From the NCBI GenBank assembly GCA_902767315.1, contig CACXHB010000043.1, forward strand, positions 1 to 64,000: a stretch of 64,000 nt of DNA, given 5' to 3'. This document shows positions 1 to 26,780 of this stretch, in pieces (the first letter of the stretch is position 1; every line of letters starts with the position of its first letter). The position numbers and the translations under genes were made by a program. A model generated the notes under the pieces. It was not told the origin of the DNA. It made no database searches and saw only the letters and a program-made list of their open reading frames with translations. The stretch is from an uncultured Eubacteriales bacterium (lineage in GTDB: Bacteria; Bacillota; Clostridia; Christensenellales; Aristaeellaceae).

Positions 1-40
1 GTTCCACACAATCTTTCTTGTACTCGTAGCTGTATTTCAT
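1..40 (-). CDS. IS3-family transposase OrfA, first 13 codons only
   Basis: An ATG at 40 on the minus strand opens a frame that leaves the window at position 1. The peptide MKYSYEYKKDCVE resembles the N-terminus of helix-turn-helix OrfA proteins of IS3/IS150-like elements, and the start lies about 41 nt inside the proposed IS end, the usual place. Too little is visible for anything beyond family level. Confidence 0.55.
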   Translation of the reverse strand, partial: MKYSYEYKKDCVE

Positions 41-81
41 ATAAATACCCCCAATACTGACTGTCCAGTATTGGGGGTACA
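1..81 (-). mobile_element. Left end of an IS3-like insertion sequence (partial)
   Basis: Read on the minus strand, the segment starts at 81 with TGTACCCCCAATACTGGACA, which resembles the TG-starting terminal repeats of IS3/IS150-group elements. It continues through a second copy of the CCCCCAATACTG motif in opposite orientation, so 48-77 can fold into a 12-bp stem, and then reaches an ATG at 40. The 13 codons visible (MKYSYEYKKDCVE) resemble the start of IS3-family OrfA transposases. The rest of the element lies outside the window, so activity and target duplication cannot be judged. Family assignment is from memory of the family's end and start sequences. Confidence 0.7.
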
Positions 82-115
82 TATCAGAGCCTTTGCGCCC
101 CGGGCCGTTTTCGCG

Positions 116-892
116 TTATTGCATATAGCGGCGCATCTGCTGCAGCGCCGATTTTTCCAGCCGGGAAACCTGGGCCTGTGAAATGCCGATTTCCGCCGCC
201 ACTTCCATCTGGGTTCGCCCCTGAAAAAATCGCCGGTTGATGATGCTGCGTTCCCGTTCCGCCAGGCGATTCAGCGCCTGCTGAATGGAAAGATCTCGTA
301 CCCAGTCCTCCTCGTTCACCCGCTCGTCCCGGAGCTGATCCATCACGTAAATGGCGTCGCCTCCGTCCTGATATACCGGGTCAAACAGAGAAACCGGATC
401 CTGCACCGCCTCCAGCGCGGCGGCCACCTCACCCTCGGGCAGCTCCATGGCCTGGGCAATTTCGCTGACCTTGGGCTCTTTTCCGGCGCGAACGGTCAGC
501 TCCTCCCGGGTCCGCAGGGCTCGGTAGGCGGTGTCCCGCAGGGAACGGGATACCCGAATGGGATTGTTGTCCCGCAGATACCGGCGGATCTCGCCGATGA
601 TCATCGGCACCGCATAGGTGGAAAACCGCACGTTCTGACTTAGGTCGAAATGATCGATGGCCTTCATCAGGCCGATGCAGCCCACCTGAAATAAATCGTC
701 CACGCTTTCGCCCCGGTTGTTGAAGCGCTGTATGACGCTGAGCACCAGCCGCAGATTGCCCCGGATAAATTCCGCCCGGGCTTCCGTGTCCCCGGCGTGC
801 ACCCGGGGAAACAATTCCCGCATGCGCTCATTTTTAATTACCGGCAGCGTGGACGTATCCACGCCGCAGATTTCCACTTTGTTGGACGGCAT
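116..892 (-). CDS. sigG: RNA polymerase sporulation sigma factor SigG
   Basis: Late forespore sigma factor, 258 aa, the usual length. The N-terminus MPSNKVEICGVDTSTLPV is nearly the Bacillus SigG start. It is followed by region 2 (NLRLVLSVIQRFNNRGE, DDLFQVGCIGLMKAIDHF, FSTYAVPMIIGEIRRYLRDN) and a region 4 helix-turn-helix (TQMEVAAEIGISQAQVSRLEK). The ATG at 892 is preceded by GGAGGTGA. It lies 61 bp downstream of sigE on the same strand, and a sigma-F/G-type promoter sits in that gap. After the stop only about 35 bp remain before the IS3-like end, and I see no terminator there. Longer in-frame starts would run back into sigE and lack homology. Confidence 0.97.
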   Translation of the reverse strand: MPSNKVEICGVDTSTLPVIKNERMRELFPRVHAGDTEARAEFIRGNLRLVLSVIQRFNNRGESVDDLFQVGCIGLMKAIDHFDLSQNVRFSTYAVPMIIGEIRRYLRDNNPIRVSRSLRDTAYRALRTREELTVRAGKEPKVSEIAQAMELPEGEVAAALEAVQDPVSLFDPVYQDGGDAIYVMDQLRDERVNEEDWVRDLSIQQALNRLAERERSIINRRFFQGRTQMEVAAEIGISQAQVSRLEKSALQQMRRYMQ

Positions 893-1664: not shown

Positions 1665-2464
1665 GAACACTCCTCCTTTGATTGATGTTTCCGGTCTTTG
1701 CCGGCAAAATATTCCATACATTCCGGGGGCGCAAGGGCCCCCGCGCCTCCCGGCAGCGGCCCGGGATAAACGGCCACCCAGAAGGCTTCCCCGGCCTCCG
1801 CGCCGTCGAATTTCAGCGCCTCCGGACAAAAGCAGCCCATGACGCCGCTGCCGCCCACGCCCCCGAAGGCCACCTCCCGCAGCCCGGGAAATGGCCGCCG
1901 CCAGGGCTCCAGCGGGTCGTAATCCCTGGGCAAAAGCCCCTGTAATTGCTCCTGACCCACTACAATCACCGGCAGGGAACTGACGGGCTCCCGCAGCCGG
2001 TTTCCCGTGTCAATCAGCGCCGGGAAAGCCGCCGCTCTTCCGCGCCATTCCAATCGGATCTCCACCCGCCAATTGGCCTGCCATCGGCGCTTCCTGTTCA
2101 ATATCAGTGAGCTGCCCAGGGCGGAAAGACAGTATGTCCCCGCCGCCAGCAGTGAATTTCCCTGAAAGGGGCGGGAGAGGGCATATCCCAGGGCCGAAAG
2201 GGCCAGCACCGCGGCCCCCGCGCCCCGGTGACCCGGCCCCGCCGCCATGCGGGCCATTACCGCCGTCCAGCAAATGCTCAGAAAGTTTTTGACGGCCTCC
2301 GGAAGCGCCATGGGCAGCAGCAGCCCCGCGAACAGCGCCCCCGCCGCCGCGGCGGAAATCAATCGCTTTAGTCGCAGCCGGCGCACGGGCCGCAGCGCCG
2401 CCGCCAGCGTGACGAAATCCAGCGTAAATTCCCGGATCATCAGCATCTCCACGCTGCGGTACAA
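1643..2464 (-). CDS. spoIIGA: Sigma-E processing peptidase SpoIIGA
   Basis: Membrane aspartic protease (family U4) that cuts pro-sigma-E at the asymmetric septum; 273 aa. The N-terminal half has several hydrophobic segments ([50 protein letters not shown]). The C-terminal half holds the active-site motif ALIDTGNRL and the later glycine-rich segment [15 protein letters not shown] place the start at the TTG at 2464 because GGAGGTGG lies 6 bp upstream and the resulting [13 protein letters not shown] matches the family N-terminus. An ATG at 2551 would add 29 unrelated residues. It is first gene of the spoIIGA-sigE-sigG cluster. Confidence 0.9.
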
Positions 2465-2502
2465 TCGACCACCTCCGAAGCAAAAGTTTACCCTTCCTTC
2501 AC

Positions 2503-2531
2503 ATAATTTACCCGGAGAAAAAGTCGTACAA
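2503..2531 (-). promoter_or_regulatory. Possible sigma-A-type promoter of spoIIGA
   Basis: On the minus strand TTGTAC (2531-2526) and AATTAT (2508-2503) are 17 bp apart, about 39 bp before the TTG start. The boxes are imperfect, as expected for an activator-dependent promoter, and two tandem Spo0A-like boxes sit just upstream at 2544-2557. The exact boxes are uncertain. Confidence 0.4.
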
Positions 2532-2543
2532 AACCGCCGTAAT

Positions 2544-2658
2544 TTCGACATTCGACAGTGTTATTTTAAAGTTTCGACATTCTTATCATTCTTAGTAGCC
2601 GCAAAATCCCATGAAAACCCAATCATTACGGCATATTTACATTCGACAATCCTCGACA
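2544..2658. promoter_or_regulatory. Cluster of Spo0A-box-like sites
   Basis: The heptamer TTCGACA (reverse complement TGTCGAA, the Spo0A box) occurs four times, at 2544-2550, 2551-2557, 2573-2579 and 2642-2648. One near match, CTCGACA, is at 2652-2658. All read the same way, as TGTCGAA on the minus strand towards spoIIGA. The spoIIG promoter is a classic Spo0A-activated target. The cluster also lies 68-182 bp upstream of the plus-strand ylmC-like gene. Confidence 0.85.
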
Positions 2659-2725
2659 CAGCTTTCGCCGCGCGACACGGGAAACCAAATTTTCTTTTCC
2701 GGCATAGAATGCTTCGGGGGGGGCG

Positions 2726-2971
2726 ATGGGGATGTTGTTTTCGGAATTAAAGCAGAAGGACGTCATCAATATCTGCAACGGCAAACGCCTGGGCCGGCCC
2801 TTTGATCTGCTTTTGAACGAACAGGCCTGCGTGGAGGCCATTCTCGTACCCGCGCAGAACGGCTTTCTGGGGCTGTTTCGCACGGAAAAGGAGGGCCTGG
2901 CCATCCCCTGGAATCACATTCGCCGTATTGGAGACGACGTAATTCTGGTGGATATGGAACCTGATGCGTAA
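2726..2971 (+). CDS. YlmC/YmxH-family PRC-barrel protein
   Basis: Small 81-aa protein, MGMLFSELKQKDVINICNGK..., with the pattern of the YlmC/YmxH sporulation-associated PRC-barrel family: SELKQKDVINI, GKRLGRPFDLLL, then IPWNHIRRIGDDVILVD at the end. Function in the family is poorly defined. It is divergent from spoIIGA and shares the intergenic region with the Spo0A-like boxes. A G-rich stretch just before the ATG may serve as ribosome binding site. Confidence 0.85.
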   Translation: MGMLFSELKQKDVINICNGKRLGRPFDLLLNEQACVEAILVPAQNGFLGLFRTEKEGLAIPWNHIRRIGDDVILVDMEPDA

Positions 2972-3049
2972 AATCAGATTTCACATTGCCGCGCATTATA
3001 CCAAATACACCGGAAATTTCTGAAAATCGAAGTTTTTTTAACAAAACAC

Positions 3050-3078
3050 TGGACTTGACTGCGAACTTTGTGTATAAT
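3050..3078 (+). promoter_or_regulatory. Sigma-A promoter of nrdR
   Basis: TGGACT (3050-3055) and TATAAT (3073-3078) are separated by 17 bp and lie 26 bp upstream of the GTG start of nrdR. A nearby TTGACT at 3055-3060 would leave only 12 bp and is less likely. Confidence 0.6.
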
Positions 3079-3103
3079 ATTAACGAATGAGGTGAGCGCG
3101 GAA

Positions 3104-3601
3104 GTGAAATGCGTCTTCTGTGATTGCATGCAAAGCCGGGTGGTAGATTCCCGGCTCAGCGACGACGGCACCAGCATTCGCCGCCGCAGAGAGTGCGAGG
3201 CCTGCGGTCGCCGGTTTACTACCTATGAAAAGGTGGAAATGATCCCGGTGATGGTCGTAAAGCGGGACAAAACCCGTCAGGCTTTTGACGCGGCGAAAAT
3301 TCGCCCGGGCGTGATCAAGGCCTGCGAAAAGCGGCCCGTTTCCCTGGGACAGATCGACGATCTGGTGCGCAGCGTCGAAAAAAAAGTATATTCCATGGGC
3401 GATACGGAAGTCACCAGCCTGGCGGTGGGCGAGATCGTGATGGAAGAATTAAAAAAGCTGGACGAAGTGGCGTATGTCCGGTTTGCTTCCGTGTACCGGC
3501 AGTTTAAGGACATTCAAACCTTCATGAACGAACTGTCCAAATTGCTCACCGATTCCGAAATGGGTACTACCGACGGACAAACTCCGGCGGATAAATACTA
3601 A
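3104..3601 (+). CDS. nrdR: Transcriptional repressor NrdR
   Basis: Regulator of ribonucleotide reductase genes, 165 aa. The N-terminal zinc ribbon starts at residue 1 (MKCVFCDCMQSRVVDSR) and continues with the second pair CEACGRRFTTYE. The ATP-cone domain follows (VVKRDKTRQAFDAAKI through VAYVRFASVYRQFKD). The start is the GTG at 3104, with AGGTGA 8 bp upstream; the longer ATG at 3068 overlaps the promoter and adds residues absent from the family. The C-terminal tail after residue 150 is poorly conserved. No nrd gene is in the window. Confidence 0.96.
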   Translation: MKCVFCDCMQSRVVDSRLSDDGTSIRRRRECEACGRRFTTYEKVEMIPVMVVKRDKTRQAFDAAKIRPGVIKACEKRPVSLGQIDDLVRSVEKKVYSMGDTEVTSLAVGEIVMEELKKLDEVAYVRFASVYRQFKDIQTFMNELSKLLTDSEMGTTDGQTPADKY

Positions 3602-3625
3602 TATACAAGAAATGAGGACACGCAC

Positions 3626-4327
3626 ATGGCAAATGAATTGATACTGGCCGTTGACGACGAGGCTCATATCCTTGAACTGTTGTCGTTCAATCTGGAGGCA
3701 TCCGGCTACCGGGTCGTGACTGCCACCACAGGTGAAGATGCACTGGCGGTCTGCCAGCGCGAGCGTCCTGCAATGGTGCTTTTGGACATTATGCTCCCCG
3801 GCATCGATGGCATGGAAGTCTGCCGCCGTCTGAAGGGACAGTCCACCACTGCGGACATCCCGATCATTATGCTGACGGCCAAGGGCGACGAAGTGGACAA
3901 GATCCTGGGCCTGGAACTGGGCGCAGACGATTATATTACCAAGCCCTTCTCCGTGCGGGAACTGATCGCCCGGGTAAAGGCGCTTTTGCGCCGCGCCGCG
4001 CCTCAGAATGAGGAAGAGGGCATTCTCCACGTGGGCGGCCTGACCATCGACGTGGGCAATTATGAAGCCTTCCGCAACGGCGAAAAGCTTTCCCTGACGC
4101 TGAAAGAGTTCGAACTGCTCAAGCTGCTGGTGCTCAGCCGCGGCAAGGTGTTGACCCGCGATTTCCTGCTGGATCGCATCTGGGGCTATGAATTCTACGG
4201 CGAGACCCGCACGGTGGACGTGCATATCCGTCACATCCGCCAGAAGCTGGGAGACGACGCCCGTTATATCGAAACCATCCGCGGCGTCGGCTATAAGTTC
4301 AACGACAAGCAGGAGAACCGCCTGTGA
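3626..4327 (+). CDS. OmpR/PhoB-family response regulator
   Basis: Two-component regulator, 233 aa. The receiver domain (about 1-120) has DDE near residue 10, phosphoacceptor D54 in LLDIMLPG, and the K of DDYITKPF. The C-terminal winged helix (about 135-228) has LTLKEFELLKLL and TVDVHIRHIRQKLGD...IRGVGYKF. It overlaps the next gene, a histidine kinase, by 4 bp, so they are a cognate pair. Similarity is to PhoP/PhoB-type regulators, but no phosphate uptake genes are nearby, so the stimulus is open. It is 24 bp downstream of nrdR and may share its promoter. Confidence 0.95.
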   Translation: MANELILAVDDEAHILELLSFNLEASGYRVVTATTGEDALAVCQRERPAMVLLDIMLPGIDGMEVCRRLKGQSTTADIPIIMLTAKGDEVDKILGLELGADDYITKPFSVRELIARVKALLRRAAPQNEEEGILHVGGLTIDVGNYEAFRNGEKLSLTLKEFELLKLLVLSRGKVLTRDFLLDRIWGYEFYGETRTVDVHIRHIRQKLGDDARYIETIRGVGYKFNDKQENRL

Positions 4328-23745: not shown

Positions 23746-23825
23746 AAAAACCCTCCCCGGCGGCTGTTTTCGCCGCAAAAATTCGAAATTCGTCTTCATA
23801 ATACCCCATATTTTGCAAATAAATA

Positions 23826-23854
23826 TTGACGATTTTCGAAGATTACGTTATAAT
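23826..23854 (+). promoter_or_regulatory. Sigma-A promoter of secD
   Basis: TTGACG (23826-23831), 17-bp spacer, TATAAT (23849-23854), 62 bp before the secD ATG. Confidence 0.8.
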
Positions 23855-23915
23855 AGAATACTGTTATGATAGATGCAAAGTGGCGGTTTCCGTCACAGGC
23901 AGGGAGGACATCCGG

Positions 23916-25163
23916 ATGAAAATCAAAAGCTGGATCAAAATTGCGGTCGTCGCCGTTCTGATCGTTCTGGTTGCGTGCCTGGCGCTCAACGGAATTCAGA
24001 TTGGCAAGTACATCGTCACGCCGGTAGGCGACGCAATCAGCCTGGGTCTGGATCTGCAGGGCGGTATCTCTACCGTCTATGTGGCCAAGGACTCTTCGGT
24101 GGAGAACTTCGATTCGCTGATGGAGAGCACCATCTCCGTTCTGCGCACCCGACTGACCAACGCCGGTTATACCGAGGCCACCGTGGCCCGTCAGGGCTCG
24201 GACGCCATTCGCGTGGAAATTCCCGATGTGGATGATCCGCAGCAGGTGGTGGACATCATCGGCAAACCCGCACACCTGGAATTCCGCGACCCCAACGGCA
24301 ACGTGATTCTGGAAGGCGCCAACATCGAATCCTGCGGCGTGGGCTATGACGAGACCACCGGTCAGGCTTATGTGGGCTTCCAGCTGGACGCGGAGGGCAC
24401 CAAGGCCTTTGCCGACGCTACTTCCGAATTCATGGGCAAAACCATCGCCATCTATTTGGACGGCGAGGTCATCTCTTCGCCCACCGTGCAGAGCGTGATT
24501 CCCAATGGTCAGGGCAGCATCACCATGGGCAACCTCTCCGCGGAAGAATCTCAGAAACAGTCTCAGGAACTGGCGCTTCTGATCCAGTCCGGCGCGCTGC
24601 CTCTGGATATTGAAGAAAGCGAAACCCGCGCCATTTCCGCCACCCTGGGCTTCGAGGCCATCGACGGCGCGGTAATCGCCGGTATCGTGGGCCTGTGCCT
24701 GGTGGTGCTGTTCATGATTATCATGTACCGTCTGCCCGGCGTGGCCGCCAGCATGGCGCTGTCCATCTACGTGCTGATCGTGTTCTACGCCCTGGCGATT
24801 TTCAACGCTCAGCTGACGCTGCAGGGCATCGCCGGTATCCTTCTGGGCATCGGCATGGCCGTGGACGCCAACGTCATCATCTTCGAGCGCTTCCGCGAGG
24901 AGTATAAGCTGGGCCGCACGCTGAACAACGCTGTGAAGTTCGGCTTCAAAAACGCCTTCAGCTCCATTATCGATTCCAACGTGACCACCGTCATCGCGGC
25001 TGTAGTGCTGCTGATCTTCGGCACCGGCTCTATCAAGGGCTTTGCTTCCACGCTGATTATCAGCGTCGTGGTCAGCTTCTTTACCGCCACCTTCATTACC
25101 CGGTGGCTGCTGAAGAGCTTCGTCAATCTTGGCTTCACCAAGAAGTGGCTCTACACTCGATAA
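23916..25163 (+). CDS. secD: Protein translocase subunit SecD
   Basis: 415-aa RND-type membrane subunit that assists Sec export. One N-terminal helix (about 7-28), the P1 domain starting ISLGLDLQGGISTVY, then five helices in the C-terminal half with GIAGILLGIGMAVDANVIIFERFREE (the conserved D4-type motif). RBS AGGGAGGA before the ATG at 23916. secF follows 15 bp downstream, so the two are separate genes, unlike the fused SecDF of Bacillus. No insertion like that in secF is seen here. Confidence 0.96.
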   Translation: MKIKSWIKIAVVAVLIVLVACLALNGIQIGKYIVTPVGDAISLGLDLQGGISTVYVAKDSSVENFDSLMESTISVLRTRLTNAGYTEATVARQGSDAIRVEIPDVDDPQQVVDIIGKPAHLEFRDPNGNVILEGANIESCGVGYDETTGQAYVGFQLDAEGTKAFADATSEFMGKTIAIYLDGEVISSPTVQSVIPNGQGSITMGNLSAEESQKQSQELALLIQSGALPLDIEESETRAISATLGFEAIDGAVIAGIVGLCLVVLFMIIMYRLPGVAASMALSIYVLIVFYALAIFNAQLTLQGIAGILLGIGMAVDANVIIFERFREEYKLGRTLNNAVKFGFKNAFSSIIDSNVTTVIAAVVLLIFGTGSIKGFASTLIISVVVSFFTATFITRWLLKSFVNLGFTKKWLYTR

Positions 25164-25178
25164 GGGAGGATACCGAAA

Positions 25179-26780
25179 ATGAAGAGAACGTTTACTGGCA
25201 AAAACCGTATCTTCCTTGCCATTTCCGGCGTAATCATTCTGGTGGCGCTGGTAATGCAGATCTGCGGCGCAGGCATGAACCTGGGCATCGATTTCACCGG
25301 CGGCTCTCTTTTGACCTATTCCGTGGGCGAGAGCTATGATGTGGAAGACGTCTATACCATCCTCAAGGCCGCCGGATACGATCAGTATCAGGTCACCAAG
25401 ACCGAGCCCTCCGAGGCTTCCAACGCCCTGCGTGCGGAGCTGGCCGCTCAGGCCGCCGCCACCCCCGAGGCCACGCTGGAGCCCGAAACCACCGCGGAAG
25501 CGGCCGCTACCGACGCCGCCGAAGCTACCCAGACTCCGGAAGAAACCGCGGAAGCCACCCAGGAGCCCGAAGCCACTGAGGAACCCGCGGCTACCGAAGC
25601 GCCCCTGGGCCTTCTGAACCCCGATAAGTCCGGCATTGCTCAGGATAGCCTCACCGACCTTCAGATTCGCCTGGATCTGGTGGACGAAACCGCCGGCCTG
25701 GAAGACCAGCTGGCAAGCAGCGTCAAGGCCGCCTTCCCGGAAGCCAAGCAGACCGTCTATCACACCGTCACCAGCATCCTGGCCAACGACAAGGGCTATG
25801 ACCAGGCGTTCGTGGGCGGATTCGTGGCCGAATACGAAATCGGCGCGGATTTCGATACCGAAGGTCTGGCGGATACCCTCACCGGCGCGCTGACCGACGC
25901 GGGCTATTCCGTGGCCGATCTGCAGGTTGTGCGCTACGACGCGGCCGCCGAAGCCGCTGCGGAAGCCACCGCCGAACCCGAAGCCACCGTGGACGCTGAG
26001 GCCACCGCCGCTGCGGAAGAAACCGCTGATACGGAAGCCACTGCCGAGCCCGAAGTGACCGCCGAGCCCGAAGCCACTGAAGAACCCGCCGCGGAAACCG
26101 GAACCTCTCTGCGGGTGCTGGTGTCCATCGACAGCCAGACCACCCAGGTGCGCAACATGATCGAAACCGAAATGCGCGCCAAATATCCGGATTTCGTGTT
26201 CGTCACCATTGATCACGTCAGCGCCGTGGCCGGCAAGGATCTGATTTCCAACGCCGTCAAGGCTCTGCTCATCGCCTTCGCCTGCATGCTGGTGTACATT
26301 GCCATCCGCTTCGATTTCTACAGCGGCGTGGTTGCGCTGGGTGCGCTGGTGCACGATGTGCTGATCATGTGCTCCTTCATGGTGTTCTTCCGTGGCGTGT
26401 TCCAGGCCAATTCCCCCTTCATTGCGGCGGTTTTGACCATCGTGGGTTATTCCATCAATAACACCATCATCATCTTCGACCGTATCCGCGAAAACGCCAA
26501 GAAGCCCGGCCAGACTAAGATGGCGAAGATCGACATCGTGGAAATGTCCGTTTCCGCTACCCTGAGCCGCACGGTGAACACCACCATCACCACCATGATT
26601 ACCCTGGTGTGCCTGTTCATCTTCGGCGTGGATTCCATCCGGGAATTCGCCTTCCCGCTGATCGTGGGTATGGTTGCCGGCACCTATTCCTCCCTGCTGC
26701 TCAGCGGTCAGGTCTGGGCTGCCTGGGTGGATAAGATCAACGCCCGGAAGGCCGCCCGCAAAGGCGCCAAGAAGGCCTAA
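25179..26780 (+). CDS. secF: Protein translocase subunit SecF with large low-complexity insertions
   Basis: 533 aa, against about 300 for usual SecF. The SecF core is clear: first helix at about 9-29, GMNLGIDFTGGSLLTYSV, and after residue 340 five helices with ALVHDVLIMCSFM, VGYSINNTIIIFDRIREN and SATLSRTVNTTITTMITL. Within the extracytoplasmic domain lie two segments made almost only of Ala, Glu, Thr, Pro (about 86-144 and 253-308). They flank a 110-residue segment (LGLLNPDKSGIAQDSLTD...) that continues the domain. The frame is open throughout and codon use matches neighbours. Likely functional; the role of the insertions is unknown. Confidence 0.93.
   Translation: MKRTFTGKNRIFLAISGVIILVALVMQICGAGMNLGIDFTGGSLLTYSVGESYDVEDVYTILKAAGYDQYQVTKTEPSEASNALRAELAAQAAATPEATLEPETTAEAAATDAAEATQTPEETAEATQEPEATEEPAATEAPLGLLNPDKSGIAQDSLTDLQIRLDLVDETAGLEDQLASSVKAAFPEAKQTVYHTVTSILANDKGYDQAFVGGFVAEYEIGADFDTEGLADTLTGALTDAGYSVADLQVVRYDAAAEAAAEATAEPEATVDAEATAAAEETADTEATAEPEVTAEPEATEEPAAETGTSLRVLVSIDSQTTQVRNMIETEMRAKYPDFVFVTIDHVSAVAGKDLISNAVKALLIAFACMLVYIAIRFDFYSGVVALGALVHDVLIMCSFMVFFRGVFQANSPFIAAVLTIVGYSINNTIIIFDRIRENAKKPGQTKMAKIDIVEMSVSATLSRTVNTTITTMITLVCLFIFGVDSIREFAFPLIVGMVAGTYSSLLLSGQVWAAWVDKINARKAARKGAKKA

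Follow-up and report, generated by a model that had tools for sequence, protein, structure and literature searches.

A SecF variant with two P4-type domains and acidic arms in a family of Clostridia, and SecG extended in the same genomes

In the window, a 64,000-nucleotide stretch of DNA from an uncultured Eubacteriales bacterium, the gene secD (23916..25163, forward strand, ATG at 23916) encodes a SecD of ordinary length without insertion, matching TIGR01129 (1.7e-105), PF21760, PF22599 and PF02355. The gene secF (25179..26780, forward strand, as are all its features below) lies directly 3' of secD, in the conserved gene order secD-secF-recJ-relA-dtd, where the names recJ, relA and dtd were assigned by reading translations. 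We found that secF is a single open frame (25179-26777 plus stop), that its ATG is preceded by a Shine-Dalgarno-like GGGAGG, and that the frame encodes a 533-residue SecF. The protein matches TIGR00966 (2.4e-75, 253.6 bits, cut-off 160), split into two stretches, and PF02355 (5.3e-54, 182.9 bits, cut-off 20.5). It is the sole SecF in its 2.6-Mb draft genome of 168 contigs. An 852-residue antisense frame over secD and secF (23796-26354, reverse strand) was rejected as a shadow of GC-rich codons.

The topology of this SecF is TM1, P4 and five more TM helices, with the GG motif and the conserved TM motifs present. TM1 (residues 7-28; 25197..25262) is an AlphaFold helix over exactly these residues, and TM2-TM6 with the C-terminus (26223..26777) form an intact core (VGYSINNTIIIFDRIRE, LSRTVNT), covered by the PF02355 match and by structure matches to 3aqp and 5yhf. 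From its intact core and its being the sole copy, the product is most probably the functional SecF of the genome, a subunit of the proton-driven SecDF motor with a putative role, together with SecD, in PMF-driven export. At residue 428, Asn (SINN) is found in this protein and in most of the related SecFs of the family, and the T. thermophilus protein is acidic there (SIND); two fused SecDFs (L097 and L098) have Asp at this position.

The protein contains a second P4-type domain and does not keep the usual single compact P4; a single P4 is not a criterion of the family models. The element order of P4 is beta1-alpha1-beta2-beta3-alpha-beta4 (PMC8277102), and we refer to the two copies as A and B. 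With the acidic tracts cut out, a profile built from single-copy SecF P4 domains scored 67-76 bits on copy A and 35-52 bits on copy B, and the profile of its N-half scored 57-70 bits on beta1-alpha1-beta2 of copy A (four long SecFs in each case). These three elements, including the GIDFTGG motif (residues 32-80; 25272..25418), were assigned as the first part of the canonical P4 from this profile, the Sec_GG match (PF07549) and the model, which places strands at 42-48 and 70-75 and a helix at 55-64.

Acidic tracts rich in Ala, Glu, Thr and Pro are located at residues 86-144 and about 253-308 (249-311 by a window criterion), and together hold 33 acidic residues and one basic residue. Each sits between beta2 and beta3 of its own P4 copy, in a hairpin whose tip is a known insertion hotspot of the ferredoxin-like fold (PMC8277102). 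Arm 1 (residues 86-144; 25434..25610) belongs to the hairpin of copy A, and arm 2 (residues 256-306; 25944..26096), delimited by repeats, composition and AlphaFold, to that of copy B. Both arms are predicted to be disordered (pLDDT about 30-45, and about 30 in the middle of arm 1). The tract DNA contains weak tandem repeats (18-bp unit, 69-84% matches), and synonymous codons for Ala, Glu, Thr and Pro are mixed within it, so that the tracts are no pure DNA-slippage run. Across species with nearly identical cores, arm 1 spans 26-159 aligned residues and arm 2 spans 6-90, and the composition stays steady across genera at 35-43% acidic and about 1% basic. The dN/dS values within the arms are unreliable, because alignment inside them is arbitrary. 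The original prediction had described a 533-residue SecF with intact membrane motifs, a SecD free of insertions and two acidic low-complexity stretches at about residues 86-144 and 253-308, and the frame, the family cut-offs and the tract positions all agree with this description. Its suggestion that repeat length varies between strains was borne out in part, as large differences between close species.

We identified the duplicated architecture in 34 distinct long SecFs, which come from several MAG studies and belong to one Clostridia family. A profile of the segment between the arms found 29 loci in named MAGs, some of which carry the labels rabbit (Lapin), goat, sheep, roe deer, rumen (RUG) and Candidatus Pullichristensenella. 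Near full-length matches were present in 36 genomes of the same family besides the source genome, in genera g1, g6, g17, g18, g21, g32, g2 and g72. In most same-family genomes that have a SecF, the protein is ordinary and contiguous, at about 300 residues. No full-length duplicated SecF turned up beyond the family among 396 sampled genomes of the order and 391 of the class, where only the ordinary P4 half matched. A search of plasmids returned only SecF or SecDF cores below 60% identity, none covering 80% of the protein.

In a tree of the membrane core, all duplicated forms tested and the single-P4 genera g4 and g64 fall into one well supported clade, and strict monophyly of the duplicated SecFs was neither recovered nor rejected (p-AU 0.169). 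Since g4 and g64 share this clade with the duplicated SecFs, loss and early branching are both possible, and their single P4 may reflect either one. As part of our best explanation, we propose with middling confidence that P4 was duplicated in an ancestor within this family. The arms were probably added after the duplication, or lost later, because the duplicated P4 of the fused SecDFs L097 and L098 is free of arms, L092 has an arm 1 of 155 residues but is missing arm 2, and L094 has short arms.

Several genomes of the family depart from this pattern. The only SecF found in G017 (L096, about 2290-3990) has lost the DFTGG and SINN..DRIRE motifs, and this degenerate protein retains the duplicated P4 and a long EPTAEPTPEP arm. 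G005, G155, G157 and G158 likewise gave nothing stronger than weak SecF matches. In g20, g30, g31, g36 and other genera, many genomes show no SecF or just a trace at E about 1e-4, among them the 97-99% complete G035, G119, G121 and G301, and SecG is present. SecDF loss in these genera is possible.

SecG is encoded away from SecF, and was first met as a match in a relative (L099) while similar tracts were being traced. The SecG of the source genome (G000:C136, L141) has an ordinary two-TM core (PF03840, 2.5e-19) and a 55-residue acidic Ala/Glu/Thr/Pro tail after TM2. By the established topology of SecG, the end behind TM2 lies outside the cytoplasm. Every duplicated-SecF genus with SecG data shows either an acidic outside tail or a large extra outside sequence. 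Acidic tails of about 55-140 residues occur in all fully read SecGs of g1, g17, g18, g32 and g6. The SecGs of g72 (L168, L209, L210, L220, L221) and g2 (L165, L211, L213) carry about 190-600 extra outside residues, in segments joined by acidic linkers, and in one such protein tested there was no Pfam match beyond the SecG core. The SecGs read from g33, g14, g65, g4, g25, g10 and g16 are 75-79 residues long with no tail, and most other SecG frames in the family and order are too short for one. A tailed SecG was also present in g64, g19, g24, g61 and some g72 species, in which no duplicated SecF was found; the SecF of g64, g24 and g61 is plain or was not detected. Because the genera are related, the coincidence of SecG tail and SecF duplication represents one or a few events, not many. 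Among other Sec components of the source genome, YajC (L230) is extended at its N-terminus, before the TM helix, by about 45 residues rich in Thr and Ser, and YidC has no arm.

Furthermore, we surveyed 566 kb of the source genome (506 ORFs, codon model) for acidic tracts of at least 25 residues. Such tracts occur in 10 of the 506 ORFs (about 2%). Nine of these encode exported or membrane proteins; the tenth, a ribosomal protein S6-like protein (L205:1706-2155, reverse strand) with a 40-residue acidic C-terminal tail, is the only cytoplasmic case. A parvulin-like exported foldase (L123:1992-3512, reverse strand) has an acidic Ala/Glu/Thr/Pro insert like the SecF arms; its SurA_N and Rotamase matches are both below cut-off. 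CapA-like and CHAP-like proteins carry tracts of the same kind. The earlier suggestion that the arms might bind wall polymers, chaperones or substrates is conjecture. The presence of arms in other exported proteins weakens a SecF-specific role for them, and makes a neutral habit of the lineage a serious rival, by which its tendency to add acidic Ala/Glu/Thr/Pro tracts to extracytoplasmic proteins would have filled loops that were tolerant after the P4 duplication, and the arms and second domain would do nothing specific. The rapid change in arm length and the existence of relatives without arms fit this alternative too. Since the arms were dispensable over evolution and about 2% of ORFs carry a tract, the arms may be neutral. 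However, SecF is the only polytopic protein with an acidic arm among the sampled ORFs, and the arms retain their composition across genera. The inner domain has diverged more than any other folded part (35% identity between genera) and is nevertheless under purifying selection (dN/dS about 0.59 vs 0.31 for TM2-6), and SecG was remodelled in the same genomes although unlinked. Weighing both sides, we regard the neutral alternative as a tentative but credible possibility.

The wiring of the two P4 copies was evaluated by dividing each into three pieces (beta1-alpha1-beta2, beta3 and alpha2-beta4) and scoring the eight resulting chimeras against single-copy P4s. The A-A-B chimera was the best in 36/36 proteins, with a mean of 98 bits compared to 65 for A-A-A, 49 for B-B-B and 19 for the complement of A-A-B. 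The tandem chimeras A-A-A and B-B-B lost in all 36. A-A-B remained the best once membrane-adjacent motifs were trimmed, and beta3 of copy A beat beta3 of copy B by 3.4-11 bits in each of the 36 proteins. By sequence, beta3 of copy A (DKSGI..TDLQIRL; residues 149-170; 25623..25688), with many residues invariant in long SecFs, would thus belong to the canonical P4, whose second part would be the alpha2-beta4 unit at residues 319-347 (26133..26219), as indicated by the P4 profile and the chimeras. Between them lies the putative inserted domain (residues 171-254; 25689..25940; pLDDT about 90), in which alpha2-beta4 of copy A precedes beta1-alpha1-beta2 of copy B and with which beta3 of copy B (residues 307-318; 26097..26132) is grouped from the fold matches of the model.

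AlphaFold models of the whole SecF and of residues 32-355, made from an alignment of 30 rows, contain the twelve expected elements, mostly at a pLDDT of about 90 or more. In the structural comparison, 84 residues of the P4 structure 2rrn could be aligned, and the match stretches over model positions 4..317 (Z 8.9). For other ferredoxin-like folds the match comprises about 78 residues and runs over 142..288, from alpha2 of copy A to beta3 of copy B, and with Z below 8 these matches indicate a shared arrangement only. Taken together, the sequence scores and the match ranges on the predicted models suggest that the second domain interrupts the old P4 between its beta3 and alpha2. Alternatively, two complete P4s could stand in series, with an arm serving as the hairpin loop of each, on the pattern of PN1-PN2 in AcrB. 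This arrangement draws support from AcrB-type RND proteins, which the fold search ranks directly behind SecDF and whose single loop contains two modules of this type (PMC8277102). However, no single-domain match covering one tandem copy (about 11..165 or 184..316) was present among the matches listed, whose ranges are about 1-11..315-324 or 139-142..285-288, and the ancestral sequence was kept in the A-A-B pieces, not in A-A-A or B-B-B. We consider the serial arrangement the less likely one.

Uncut, the middle segment matches the P4 profile at 18.5-27 bits (20.0 for the SecF in the window) in permuted order, with the second half of the profile first, and 10,000 shuffles reached a maximum of 10.3 bits. 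Insertion of a foreign domain was rejected on the basis of this permuted match. Compared by hhalign, a family profile of the inner domain matches single-copy P4 at 96.4% (score 52.7), whereas column shuffles reached no more than 6% and 19.2, and the signal sits in beta1-alpha1-beta2, where the GG motif is retained. The sequence comparison indicates that the middle segment derives from the ferredoxin-like P4 domain of SecF itself, as a second copy that has diverged, and its homology to the flanking P4 means that SecF has two P4-type domains and not one domain with two insertions. An unrelated domain that merely looks ferredoxin-like is very improbable: such folds are common and the alpha2-beta4 piece alone has no significant homology to P4 (hhalign 0.66%), but the permuted match recurs in several genera and the beta1-alpha1-beta2 part matches P4 at 96%. 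The original prediction of an extra folded-looking segment of about 110 residues between the insertions is corrected accordingly, as the segment is a second P4. A frame error, or an artefact of assembly or binning, is favoured by nothing but the draft state of the genome and has a negligible probability given the same architecture in 34 distinct sequences, the conserved gene order and an open frame under selection; many independent MAGs contradict the earlier caution that the insertions could be an artefact or be missing from relatives.

Our best explanation, held with about even confidence, is a functional SecF with a duplicated P4, interleaved wiring and acidic arms, and a putative role at the translocon exit. 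Sequence establishes the duplication, the positions of the arms and the pattern of conservation. In SecDF, P4 and the P1 base together build one sheet, whose shape alters while the emerging chain is handled in the proton-driven cycle (PMC8277102). In the proposed mechanism, beta1-alpha1-beta2-beta3 of copy A would combine with alpha2-beta4 of copy B into the canonical P4, which would pair with the P1 base of SecD and work in this way as before. The remaining elements would fold into another ferredoxin-like domain, evolving faster, that sits between beta3 and alpha2 and rides on the canonical P4. In both domains, a disordered acidic arm would have grown out of the membrane-distal beta2-beta3 hairpin, most likely later; as the strands beta1 and beta2 appear to run away from the membrane, the arms are expected to emerge at the distal tips. 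The second domain, the arms and the acidic SecG tail could then surround the translocon exit as a charged brush, which may loosely hold or solubilise emerging chains, or gather foldases, and the unchanged membrane core would perform the proton-coupled pulling. That the outside face of Sec, comprising SecF, SecG and the foldase insert, was rebuilt as a coordinated unit to serve as a holding device for emerging proteins is a speculative extension that we think rather doubtful.

SecDF and SecG are ancient components and as a rule compact, and the way in which the outer domains of SecDF handle substrates is a matter of debate. The present SecF, in which nature has duplicated and apparently split P4 and placed charged arms in both hairpins, offers a test of which P4 parts must stay intact and which tolerate additions. 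The growth of SecG alongside SecF, although the genes are unlinked, points to changed export needs in the lineage and not to a local accident. Since family models label the proteins simply SecF and SecG, this remodelling would go unseen in ordinary annotation, and no published description of it was found in the literature searched, which misses most subscription journals. The protein is a true and unusual SecF variant, whose function we infer, and the SecG finding heightens its interest.

Compared to T. thermophilus SecDF (3aqp, 5yhf; P4 NMR structure 2rrn; also SecDF 5xam), this SecF has the same TM core, motifs, position after secD and all P4 elements. Known SecFs have one P4 of about 90 residues without inserts, whereas this one adds a second P4-type domain and two acidic arms. 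P1 of SecD, with its base and head, is similar in that a ferredoxin-like base is interrupted by an outward-reaching extra domain; in contrast, the head follows alpha2 (PMC8277102) and belongs to SecD, and the insert described here is a P4 copy in SecF. AcrB likewise has two ferredoxin-like porter modules (PN1/PN2) in one TM1-TM2 loop, although the match ranges on the predicted model favour interleaved wiring over the series arrangement of AcrB-type proteins. The RND proteins HpnN and NPC1 have inserts at the beta2-beta3 tip as well. Unlike in SecF, where they are predicted to be disordered and are acidic, the inserts of these RND proteins are folded domains, and these proteins are transporters whereas SecF is a translocase subunit. 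Finally, the SecGs share the two-TM core of ordinary SecG, and differ from it by an acidic outside tail of about 55-140 residues or, in g2 and g72, by several hundred extra residues.
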